Assembly: GCA_029938715.1 (NCBI GenBank) | Contig: JAOZUK010000015.1 | Location: forward strand, 1-54,951 | Length of the DNA: 54,951 nt | DNA from: Bacteroidales bacterium | GTDB lineage: Bacteria; Bacteroidota; Bacteroidia; Bacteroidales; GCA-2748055 | Direction of reading: 5' to 3' | Shown here: positions 15,158 to 18,659 of the stretch, piece by piece | How the letters are laid out: each line of letters opens with the position of its first letter | Numbering within the stretch: the first letter of the stretch is position 1 | Notes under the pieces: model-generated | The model's input: the letters and a program-made list of their open reading frames with translations, nothing else | The model's database searches: none | What the model was told of the DNA's origin: nothing | Made by a program: the position numbers and the translations under genes

Positions 15158-17230
15158 CTACTTGGGATACTCAATTCTGGAATGATAAATATTCGACAGC
15201 CTGTTCTTAAAGATCTCTTTGGCTGTGGAGATATCAGCATAGGTCAGATTAGCCTCTGAAAACTGGGACTCCTCAGCCTGACGGGCAACAATACTTTCCA
15301 CCAGTTCAGATATACTCTCAGGTGTATAGACTCTCAGGGCTCTGGAAGCTGCTTCCACCGAATCGGCCATCATCAATATAGCATGTTCTTTGGCAGTAGG
15401 TCTGGGTCCGGGATAAGTAAACTCCTCAATATCTATCTCCTCGTCTGGATTGGCATTTAAGAATGAACGGTAGAAGTATTGAACGGTACTGGTTCCATGA
15501 TGAGTGGAGATAAACTCGAGAATCTGGCCAGGCAATTTATGTTTCTTTCCAATCTCAATTCCAAGGATCACATGATCGATGATCATACGTGCGCTGGAAC
15601 GAAAATCGAGCTCATCGTGTGGGTTTCCTCCTTCGTTCTGATTTTCAATGTAGTACTGGGGATTCTCCATCTTACCAATATCATGGTACATGGCTCCTGC
15701 ACGTATCAGCAGCGAATTGCCTCCTAACTTTAGTATGGCCTCCTCAGCCAGATTAGCGACCTGCATAGAGTGCTGAAAAGTACCTGGAGCCTTTTCGGCC
15801 AGCTTACGAAGCAGAGGTTGATTTGTATCAGAGAGTTCAAACAGGGTTGCATCCGAAAGAAATCCAAATATCCGCTCGAAAAGAAATACAAGCGGGTATA
15901 CAGTCAGGATCAGAAGTCCATTACCAAGGAGCCAGAGCACATTGATCCAGTTTATCTGGGAAATATCTCCTTCCTGCAGAATGGAGAGCAGAATATAGAT
16001 CAGGGCATAGCAGGCAAATACAAAGGTGGCCGTGTAGAACAGGATTCCTCTTTTATAGTAGGAACGAAGGCTAAACACCCCCACCAGTCCGGCCAGGAAA
16101 TTCATCAATACGAACTGGTAACTATTTGGCACCCAGAAGCCTGCCAGAAGAAGGGTAATCATATGTACAAAAAGAGCATACCTGATATCGAAGAAGGTCT
16201 TCAGAAAGATCGGCACCAGCACAAACGGGATCACATAAACACTTACTGCATCATTGGTAGAAGCTGCGCGAGTCAGTCCCACCATCATCACAATCATGCC
16301 CAGCGTAAAAAAGGTCTGCGTCCGGCTCTTAAGGATGTCTTTTCTCAATGAGTATATAAACCAGAAGAGAGACAGGAAAATCAGGCTGATCAGTAAGAAC
16401 TGACCCAGATATACCACCAGGTAGTTTTTCTTCACATTGGGATTGGATTCGTACTCTTTTCGAAGAGACTCTATAATCAGGTAGTTGGATACCGACATTA
16501 ATTCACCCCTGGCTATGATTAACTGTCCCGACTGAACCATTCCCTGGGTTAATATTAACTCCTCAAGGCTGGCCTGCAGAACTTTCTGCGTCATTACCTC
16601 ATCGTACCCCAGGTTGGTTCTCAGATAATCATTCAGGTTAATCCTGGATAGAATGGCCAGTGAGCCCGGATTGATCCTTTCCAGTTCAGCTAATAAGTAC
16701 TCATAGGCCGACCGTTCGGTATAGAGGGTTGAATACCTTACCTCCTCAGCCACCGAATTACGCACCACCATCACCGACAGCTGGTCCAGAATCTTTCCCT
16801 CCAGCACCGGATGCCGTTCGATGATACCTGTGGCATAGATCTCTTCTAAAATATCTCTTATTGCATGGCCTGTAACGGTCCATGACTCTGACACATACAA
16901 TCCCAACCCCATGGAGACTGCTAATCGGCTATAATCGTTACTAAAAGAGGAGACCATGCTTCTTTCAGTCACCGAATCCTGCACAAAGAATAGAGGTGCT
17001 TTGCTCTCCAGGCTATCTTGCTCAAGTTGAACCTGCTCAGCTGGTTTATAAATGGGGAAGTCGAAGGGGGCCACCAGGGTTTCGTGCATCCAGGGTTTAT
17101 TCTTGGAATACTCATATTTGAATTTCCCCTCACTGGGAAACATAAAGTAAACCAGAAAAATGGCAATAAGGTAAAGTAATACGATCTGGATGGTCTTCCA
17201 GAACCTGAAAATGCCTTTAATCCAGTTCAT
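15158..17230 (-). CDS. 7TM-HD phosphodiesterase (PgpH-like)
   Basis: Membrane protein of the 7TMR-HDED/HD family, whose characterised Firmicutes members hydrolyse cyclic di-AMP. Of about 690 residues (ATG at 17230; an upstream ATG at 17257 is possible), the N-terminus has one transmembrane helix followed by a large extracytoplasmic region, then about seven hydrophobic helices (roughly 270-460), then a cytoplasmic HD domain (about 475-640). The HD domain carries the metal ligands in FQHSMQVANLAEEA and RAGAMYHDIGKMENP. The match is strong for the family; whether the substrate is c-di-AMP is not shown. No diadenylate cyclase lies in the window, but a YbbR-like protein does (4623-5618). Confidence 0.88.
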   Translation of the reverse strand: MNWIKGIFRFWKTIQIVLLYLIAIFLVYFMFPSEGKFKYEYSKNKPWMHETLVAPFDFPIYKPAEQVQLEQDSLESKAPLFFVQDSVTERSMVSSFSNDYSRLAVSMGLGLYVSESWTVTGHAIRDILEEIYATGIIERHPVLEGKILDQLSVMVVRNSVAEEVRYSTLYTERSAYEYLLAELERINPGSLAILSRINLNDYLRTNLGYDEVMTQKVLQASLEELILTQGMVQSGQLIIARGELMSVSNYLIIESLRKEYESNPNVKKNYLVVYLGQFLLISLIFLSLFWFIYSLRKDILKSRTQTFFTLGMIVMMVGLTRAASTNDAVSVYVIPFVLVPIFLKTFFDIRYALFVHMITLLLAGFWVPNSYQFVLMNFLAGLVGVFSLRSYYKRGILFYTATFVFACYALIYILLSILQEGDISQINWINVLWLLGNGLLILTVYPLVFLFERIFGFLSDATLFELSDTNQPLLRKLAEKAPGTFQHSMQVANLAEEAILKLGGNSLLIRAGAMYHDIGKMENPQYYIENQNEGGNPHDELDFRSSARMIIDHVILGIEIGKKHKLPGQILEFISTHHGTSTVQYFYRSFLNANPDEEIDIEEFTYPGPRPTAKEHAILMMADSVEAASRALRVYTPESISELVESIVARQAEESQFSEANLTYADISTAKEIFKNRLSNIYHSRIEYPK

Positions 17231-17362
17231 GGGGTGAAAATAAAACAACTTTTGCAACTTTTAACCTCTCCCAGGCATTTTTGTTCAATAGCATTGAAAC
17301 TCTGAGGCAACTTAAAGATTTTAACTATCTTGAAATTATTCTAGTGTAGTGAAGGCTGTAAA

Positions 17363-18145
17363 ATGAAACAAGGCATATCATACCAGGGTTGTATACCCAT
17401 GAGGCGAAATCCCGGACACAGATCCGAAATGATCTCACAGCTCCTGTTCAGTGAGGAATTCACGATCATGGAAGAGGATCATGGCTGGCTCTTAATAGCA
17501 CTTGATCATGAGGGTTCCCAAGGGTGGGTGGACAATGAGAGTATCCAGGTAATTGAATCTTCCAATGAAGCGCTGGATATGCCCACATCGGGCTACCGCA
17601 TAGTAACCTATCCATCCATTACAGTACTTGACCAGAAAGAGAGTCATCAGCTCATCTTGCCTGCCGGATCATTTTGGCCTTCTGGCTCTGCTACTAAAAT
17701 TGAATTACACGGCAGGAATTTCGAATTGCTATCCCAGGAGGGACTGGACACTCCCGGGAGGGACGTTGATCTGGAAGAGATCGGTGGGAAGCTGTTGTCC
17801 CTGCCTGCCATTCATGGGGGCAGATGTGGATTTGGCTTTGATGCGCCGGGCCTTGTTCAGATGCTGTGCCAAATGAGAGGCCTGCAGGTACCCCGAACCA
17901 GCCAGGCTCAGTCAGATCTGGGAAACGCAATTAACTTTATTCACGAAGTAGCTGCTGGCGACCTGGCATTCTTCGACAATATGAATGGGGAGATTGATCA
18001 CGTGGGGCTGTTGCTGGAAGGAGGAAGAGTCCTGCATGCCTATCAACAGGTACGTATTGACAGATTTGATCAGCAGGGAATATATTGCTCTGACAGAGAA
18101 AGATACACACATAAACTAAGGATTATCAAAAGGATCGAAGGATAG
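17363..18145 (+). CDS. NlpC/P60-like protein with the catalytic Cys replaced
   Basis: Resembles the SH3b-NlpC/P60 (YkfC-type) murein-peptide endopeptidases: two SH3-like regions (about 1-140), then a C-terminal NlpC/P60 domain. In active members the sequence is GGRSxFGxDCSGF, with the Cys as nucleophile. Here it is GGRCGFGFDAPGL: the catalytic Cys is Ala161 (codon GCG at 17843-17845) and the next residue is Pro. A Cys is present at 155, and the other conserved positions are kept (DHVG with His213, LHA with His225). There is no signal peptide. The likely reading is a non-catalytic domain. It is followed by the Nudix gene. Confidence 0.75.
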   Translation: MKQGISYQGCIPMRRNPGHRSEMISQLLFSEEFTIMEEDHGWLLIALDHEGSQGWVDNESIQVIESSNEALDMPTSGYRIVTYPSITVLDQKESHQLILPAGSFWPSGSATKIELHGRNFELLSQEGLDTPGRDVDLEEIGGKLLSLPAIHGGRCGFGFDAPGLVQMLCQMRGLQVPRTSQAQSDLGNAINFIHEVAAGDLAFFDNMNGEIDHVGLLLEGGRVLHAYQQVRIDRFDQQGIYCSDRERYTHKLRIIKRIEG

Positions 18146-18206: not shown

Positions 18207-18659
18207 ATGTCAAAAGTGGGAGCGTATACTTATGACTACCCAAGGCCAGCGGTGACCGCTGATATAGCAGTGTTGCGTATGGAGGGAGTACCGGAGATCC
18301 TGTTGGTGCAGCGAAAGGATCCTCCCTTTAAAGATATGTGGGCCCTTCCGGGTGGTTTTATGGAGATGGATGAAACCCTTGAGGATGCAGCACGAAGGGA
18401 GTTGCTTGAAGAGACTGCAATCAGTGCCGGCGAGTTTATCCGGTTCGACACCTATGACAACCCCGGTCGCGATCCCAGGGGACGTACCATTACTCAGGTT
18501 TTTGTGATGCTCTGGAAAAAAGAGATGGGCCTTCCCCGGGCAGGAAGTGATGCCAAATCCCTGGCCTGGTTCGAACTAACCACACTACCCGGGCTGGCTT
18601 TTGATCATGCCTCCATTGTAAATGATGTAATCCAGCTAATGCGCACAGCCAAAGAGTGA
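18207..18659 (+). CDS. Nudix hydrolase
   Basis: A 150-residue Nudix-fold pyrophosphohydrolase. The Nudix box (residues about 48-71) reads G-FMEMD-E-TLEDAAR-RELLEE-T-A-I and keeps the metal-binding RE and EE residues; only the last glycine of the classic pattern is alanine, a common variant. The preceding YDYPRPAVTADIAVLRMEGVPEILLVQRKDPPFKDMWALPGGF is typical of ADP-ribose or NTP pyrophosphatases, but the exact substrate cannot be read from sequence. The ATG at 18207 has AAGG 5 bases upstream. It lies alone, 61 bases after the NlpC/P60-like gene. Confidence 0.85.
   Translation: MSKVGAYTYDYPRPAVTADIAVLRMEGVPEILLVQRKDPPFKDMWALPGGFMEMDETLEDAARRELLEETAISAGEFIRFDTYDNPGRDPRGRTITQVFVMLWKKEMGLPRAGSDAKSLAWFELTTLPGLAFDHASIVNDVIQLMRTAKE

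Follow-up and report, generated by a model that had tools for sequence, protein, structure and literature searches.

We analysed a 54,951-nucleotide stretch of DNA from a Bacteroidales bacterium (assembly GCA_029938715.1, contig JAOZUK010000015.1; hereafter the window), and focused on an open reading frame (ORF) at 17363..18145 that encodes a 260-residue YkfC-type NlpC/P60 protein, P0001, lacking the catalytic cysteine of this family. Unless stated otherwise, all features given below lie on the + strand. P0001 matched the Pfam NLPC_P60 model with 55.7 bits (cut-off 23), and the SH3_16 and SH3_3 models also scored above cut-off. Its AlphaFold2 model, built from a 43-sequence alignment, had a predicted local distance difference test (pLDDT) score of 94.0 and a predicted template-modelling score (pTM) of 0.91, and the closest solved structure was Bacillus cereus YkfC (3h41; Z 26.3, root-mean-square deviation 2.4, 246 residues), followed by Bacteroides BT_1314 (4r0k) and BACOVA_00612 (3npf), both at Z 24.0. 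The alignment to 3h41 (model range 2-260) reproduced the SH3b1-SH3b2-NlpC/P60 fold of these YkfC/dipeptidyl-peptidase VI structures (Z 24-26), with an SH3b1-like domain at residues about 1-65 (17363..17557; Pfam SH3_16 and SH3_3 at residues 13-61) and an NlpC/P60 domain at residues about 136-258 (17768..18136; Pfam 151-239, with isolated NlpC/P60 domains matching from about residue 132 in VIA-align). Together with domain-only structure matches at Z 11-13, the Pfam score places P0001 in the NlpC/P60 family (PF00877) by homology. No signal peptide was visible by eye, and since intact orthologues likewise begin at the SH3 domain, its absence is a family trait rather than part of the loss.

Active-site positions were mapped by alignment from the B. 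cereus YkfC residues that contact the ligand, as named in the part of its structural description that was available (PMC2954226). Where NlpC/P60 peptidases have DCSG, the window copy reads D160-A161-P162-G163 (17840..17851), with the cysteine (YkfC Cys238) replaced by alanine (codon GCG, 17843-17845) and the serine by proline. The ORF translation thus bears out what a sequence-only reading of the window had noticed, including the retained histidine region (DHVG) and the lack of a signal peptide. His213 (17999..18001; YkfC His291) and His225 (18035..18037; YkfC His303), the histidine and third polar residue of an active peptidase, are present, as are Asp160, Arg178, and Ser180 (YkfC Asp237, Arg255, and Ser257). 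All five of the ligand contacts that we tested are replaced, with Ser52 (17516..17518) standing for Tyr118, Ala149 and His151 (17807..17815) for Tyr226 and Trp228, Pro162 for Ser239, and Thr179 (17897..17899) for Asp256, the free-amine ligand. The SH3b Tyr118 and Asp256 are described, in the same available text, as correlated markers of the YkfC subfamily and of its specificity for free L-Ala (PMC2954226). From its sequence, the window copy would be non-catalytic, in agreement with the sequence-only reading, which had also raised Cys155 (TGT, 17825..17827) as a possible relocated nucleophile. We rejected this candidate: Cys155 coexists with DCSG in five intact orthologues (L006, L007, L013, L014, and L016) and does not recur among the other inactive copies. 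In the model it lies in the stretch preceding a predicted helix (161-171) that starts at Ala161.

Loss of the nucleophile is not peculiar to the window and recurs across Bacteroidota, with the cysteine absent from 28 of 217 aligned homologues and present in 189. Within the window's family (28 genomes searched), 18 full-length orthologues were recovered, nine with DCSG and nine without; the latter carry DAPG (window), DSAG (L005), DGPG (L008-L012), DGGG (L015), and DSPG (L045). In other families of the order, all 34 full-length orthologues that were read keep the cysteine, one of them as DCTG. Among named loci, taken as the best 80 of 566 matches from a search with alignment A1, the cysteine was lost in 3 (L096, L118, and L135, the last from Maribacter orientalis); a contig scan with P0001 as the sole query had found no relative, whereas alignment A1 did recover relatives. 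A phylum sample of 395 genomes was searched with the intact orthologue L004, and, with the window's own match set aside, the cysteine was lost in 16 of the 89 top-ranked matches (to E 1.5e-23), a share that describes these matches and is thus no census. One broken copy (L055), one remnant (L056), one copy cut by a contig end (L057), and one partial copy with DCSG (L215) were dropped before counting, as were L058, L059, and L061, which are the same genes as L007, L013, and L016. The cysteine is replaced by serine in 11 of the inactive copies, by glycine in 11, and by alanine in 6.

A tree of the 28 inactive and 89 thinned intact sequences, built without the active-site columns, implied at least 10 changes at this position, 5 of them forced by well-supported branches, and a FastTree analysis of all 217 sequences implied 11; such counts cannot separate loss from regain. 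Within the window's genus, constraining seven inactive sequences to one clade gave p = 0.34 in the approximately unbiased (AU) test, so that independent losses inside the genus are not shown by these data. With L015 added, the eight already group together (support 55/82), and one shared loss within the genus is compatible with the tree.

The window belongs to a 945-contig, 6.2-Mb metagenome-assembled genome, and its nearest orthologue, L004 (59-61% identical), keeps DCSG, as do L006 and L007. The sequence-only reading had held that DCSG in close orthologues would refute its interpretation by suggesting a sequencing error or a recent loss, and had left open whether DAPG is shared among relatives. 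DCSG is indeed found there, but it does not mean error, because other members of the genus carry DSAG, DGPG, or DGGG instead of DAPG and purifying selection has acted while the DGPG sequences diverged from one another. Moreover, six active-site positions differ in the window copy (52, 149, 151, 161, 162, and 179), on which ground a single-base error was rejected, and the cysteine is also lost in other genomes, including that of Maribacter orientalis DSM 16471, a named strain. We therefore regard a sequencing or assembly artefact as having a negligible chance of explaining the motif.

We next compared the conservation of active-site residues between intact and inactive copies. Among intact and inactive copies, respectively, Tyr52 is present in 185/189 and 5/28, Tyr149 in 189/189 and 7/28, Trp151 in 189/189 and 12/28, Ser162 in 187/189 and 12/28, and Asp179 in 181/189 and 8/28. 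By comparison, Asp160 is present in 189/189 and 27/28, Arg178 in 189/189 and 25/28, His213 in 189/189 and 28/28, and His225 in 189/189 and 27/28. Intact copies conserve 55 positions at ≥85% (weighted); inactive ones hold 37 of these at ≥85%, and nine drop below 60% (52, 149, 150, 151, 161, 162, 179, 180, and 227). Seven of these nine are residues named for the YkfC active site in the available part of PMC2954226; position 150 sits between two of them, and position 227, two residues past the second histidine, would lie near the pocket. Mean retention in inactive copies was 0.34 for the five pocket residues and 0.88 elsewhere (p = 0.0003). Erosion of the five contacts is graded, with none lost in L180 and L186, one in L045 and L182, and five in the window copy, which suggests that the cysteine was lost first. 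The catalytic histidines and the Asp-Arg pair (160, 178, 213, and 225) remain near-invariant despite the lost nucleophile and the loss of much of the pocket, and support of the fold is the only explanation we can offer.

This pattern bears on two alternatives in which the pocket would still be in use. In the first, the protein would act as a muropeptide sensor that no longer cuts, binds free muropeptides or peptidoglycan peptides, and reports to a partner. RipD of Mycobacterium tuberculosis (Rv1566c; 4jxb and 4lj1; domain Z 11), in which the catalytic cysteine is likewise replaced by alanine, is described in the accessible portion of PMC12067865 as a peptidoglycan-binding, non-catalytic NlpC/P60 protein, and the sensor would be its cytosolic counterpart. 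Retention of Asp160, Arg178, Ser180, His213, and His225 in the window copy, and of all five tested contacts in L180 and L186, with one lost in each of L045 and L182, fits such a role. However, Tyr52, Tyr149, Trp151, Ser162, and Asp179 are all replaced in the window copy. All five of these ligand positions belong to the relaxed nine, where inactive copies share no substitute consensus. RipD has also lost its histidine (Ala-Ser-Glu in the same portion of PMC12067865), while the window copy keeps both; it differs further from RipD in having SH3b domains and no visible signal peptide, and in a loss that recurs through its phylum. Without a visible signal peptide, the window protein is unlikely to touch the cell wall itself. 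A sensor role is unlikely, and muropeptide binding by the window copy, which the sequence-only reading had proposed beside a regulatory role, is disfavoured.

In the second alternative, the protein would be a changed enzyme that uses the His213-His225-Asp160 network with another nucleophile or chemistry on a new substrate. The near-complete conservation of both histidines goes beyond what a purely structural role need require, and serine occupies position 161 in 11/28 inactive copies. Against this, the position is glycine or alanine in the other 17, the only new trend is proline at 156 with no new conserved pocket residue, and Cys155 occurs in no other inactive copy yet is present in five intact ones. 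We consider a changed enzyme improbable, more so than a sensor.

If the active site has been lost, the gene itself could be dying, with the inactive copies representing slow pseudogenes. Ratios of nonsynonymous to synonymous substitution rates (dN/dS), computed by the Nei-Gojobori method (NG86), were 0.06-0.17 over ten pairs of the DGPG group, which shares its inactive motif, 0.028 for the inactive pair L195/L196 (at a dS of 2.28, near saturation), and 0.15 for the inactive pair L096/L187, compared to 0.01 to 0.28 for intact pairs. Of the five inactive pairs for which dN/dS could be computed by part, four had their lowest ratio in the NlpC/P60 part (0.03-0.09 over all five), and in L009/L010 the SH3 part was slightly lower. 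The inactive protein is therefore kept by purifying selection in the groups where this can be measured. Consistent with this, all 28 aligned inactive copies have intact reading frames, and the nine sites of relaxed conservation cluster around the pocket. Several results weigh on the other side. The window copy is saturated in dS against L004, so that its own dN/dS is not computable, and dS was also saturated in L180/L186, L179/L183, and L199/L207; in the last of these pairs dN was higher in the NlpC/P60 part than in either of the other two. The gene looks partly dispensable in the window's genus, where six of 18 genomes (76-88% complete) have no orthologue and G002 retains only a remnant (L056) that lacks most of the catalytic domain. 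The G027 orthologue (L055) still has DCSG but is broken by 3 TGA and 2 TAA codons. A general decay into pseudogenes appears unlikely to us, a little more so than the sensor.

The gene is preceded in the window by a divergent 7TM-HD phosphohydrolase gene (PgpH-like; 15158..17257, - strand; Pfam) and followed by a NUDIX hydrolase gene (18207..18659; Pfam). Where at least 1 kb of upstream sequence was present, an opposite-strand 7TM-HD gene lies upstream at 19 of 27 inactive loci and 62 of 134 intact ones, and a same-strand thiolase gene at 11/27 and 55/134; a same-strand NUDIX gene, a local neighbour, lies downstream at 6/27 and 25/141. Because inactive and intact copies share the 7TM-HD neighbour, inactivation at these 19 loci struck orthologues in situ; at the other 8 inactive loci this neighbour was not matched. 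In part of the Bacteroidota loci the thiolase gene lies between the 7TM-HD and YkfC-type genes. We take the PgpH-like 7TM-HD proteins to be a family of cyclic di-adenosine monophosphate (c-di-AMP) hydrolases.

We then considered the pathway in which a cytosolic YkfC would act. The chlamydial YkfC is likewise a cytosolic, muropeptide-recycling NlpC/P60 protein but, unlike the window copy, is catalytically active, and its C172A mutant fails to support growth in an Escherichia coli surrogate; LD-carboxypeptidase converts the tetrapeptide to the tripeptide, and the chlamydial enzyme cuts both (PMC9928106, in the part available). We searched for S66 LD-carboxypeptidases in 75 genomes, comprising every inactive-copy genome among the searchable ones (25) and 50 intact-copy genomes (9 from the family plus 41 of the 73 intact phylum-sample loci, hand-picked to thin near kin). 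A signal-free S66 protein was present in 0/25 inactive-copy and 37/50 intact-copy genomes (Fisher p = 1.4e-10, kinship ignored). When six less complete genomes, picked by hand, were left out, it was lacking from 21/21 and 11/48 (p = 4.8e-10). No S66 protein of any kind was found in 11/25 inactive-copy and 2/50 intact-copy genomes, and each of the 14 S66 proteins that inactive-copy genomes encode has, in our own reading, an export-type N-terminus. Over independent pairs, on average 2.2 ran the same way and none the opposite way.

Export of S66 proteins was judged by our own hydrophobicity score and by eye, with no signal-peptide program. L249, L252, L253, and L257 (inactive-copy genomes) and L254 (intact-copy) fell below the script limit and were classed as exported by their twin-arginine N-termini, and L268 is a fragment with a signal. 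L267, L284, and L309-L313 were classed as signal-free by an internal start, as was L298 although no ATG was found. In L257 (G001:C80), from a draft assembly, the twin-arginine leader lies just upstream in another frame than the catalytic domain. Seven Flavobacterium-like S66 proteins (L280, L289-L292, L299, and L301), which have a signal-like N-terminus and a possible internal start and come from genomes with an intact YkfC-type copy, are apparent exceptions to a simple pathway rule; they were counted as exported, a choice that weakens the association. In the S66 tree, a single deep group unites 10/14 inactive-copy sequences with L248, L254, and L269, which come from intact-copy genomes; the remaining 4 belong to another group, which mixes signal-bearing and signal-free sequences.

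Inactive-copy genomes also more often encoded a long YkfC homologue (E <1e-50; 14/25 compared to 4/50; Fisher p = 1.1e-5, kinship ignored), by a limit chosen after viewing the list and in an association that is not significant in independent pairs; the motif was read in the window's own genome only. There, a run of genes (L314:5947-10861; G000:C830) begins with a long YkfC lipoprotein (by its N-terminus) with intact DCSG. Next to it come an epimerase-like and an S66 protein, each with a twin-arginine N-terminus, and then a transporter-like membrane protein (by its sequence). This looks like an extracytoplasmic muropeptide-processing set that could perform the same chemistry outside the cytoplasm. 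As the sole replacement, the long exported YkfC would be only partial, and we rejected it in that role. For Mpl (TIGR01081), none of the 75 genomes reached the cut-off, and we drew no conclusion from it.

Taken together, these results make it probable that cytosolic muropeptide cleavage became redundant and the active site decayed, while the scaffold was kept for a non-catalytic function. The ancestor would have been a Bacteroidota cytosolic YkfC-type peptidase that cleaved the γ-D-glutamyl-meso-diaminopimelate (γ-D-Glu-mDAP) bond of free muropeptides with N-terminal L-Ala. In some lineages, which have no signal-free LD-carboxypeptidase, the cytosol may no longer make or need the muropeptide substrate, and in the window's genome the exported YkfC lipoprotein, with the epimerase-like and S66 proteins bearing presumptive twin-arginine translocation (Tat) signals, could take over this task beyond the cytoplasm. 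The active site would then be released from selection, and the nucleophile, followed by the pocket, would decay. Because selection on the rest of the protein continued, the scaffold would serve the cytosol in another way that needs no catalysis, most likely by binding a protein partner.

Part of the pathway evidence pulls against this account. Only 3 supported independent pairs were available, with which a sign test cannot reach significance, and among the 11 inactive-copy genomes without S66, 5 belong to two small near-kin groups and 2 are only 58% and 65% complete. A signal-free S66 is likewise missing from 13 intact-copy genomes, of which 11 encode only signal-bearing proteins by our crude test and 2, which are 69% and 88% complete, encode none; a long YkfC is absent from 11/25 inactive-copy genomes. 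Furthermore, since the chlamydial YkfC also cleaves the tetrapeptide (PMC9928106, available part), a missing S66 alone need not remove all substrate.

A related possibility, which we consider doubtful and about as unlikely as the sensor, is that YkfC-type proteins always had two jobs, cleavage and an older-conserved non-catalytic one, of which only the second survives in many lineages. That second job might be control of the divergent 7TM-HD phosphodiesterase or of another envelope partner. If so, a recycling enzyme would have switched to a regulator recurrently across the phylum.

RipD already provides a precedent for an NlpC/P60 protein that has become non-catalytic (PMC12067865, in the portion accessible), so the loss described here does not define a new category. 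In the literature searched, which most subscription papers lay outside and which was screened in part by title or opening of the abstract, we found no published account of this case and no paper that uses 'NlpC' and 'pseudoenzyme' together. For annotation, the family-name label 'peptidase' would be wrong on activity for a fair share of these loci (16/89 in the phylum sample). Recurrent loss, mostly at an unchanged locus and together with a change in the pathway, provides natural replicates for studying the non-catalytic roles of a metabolic enzyme, and the hidden function is directly testable in cultured species.
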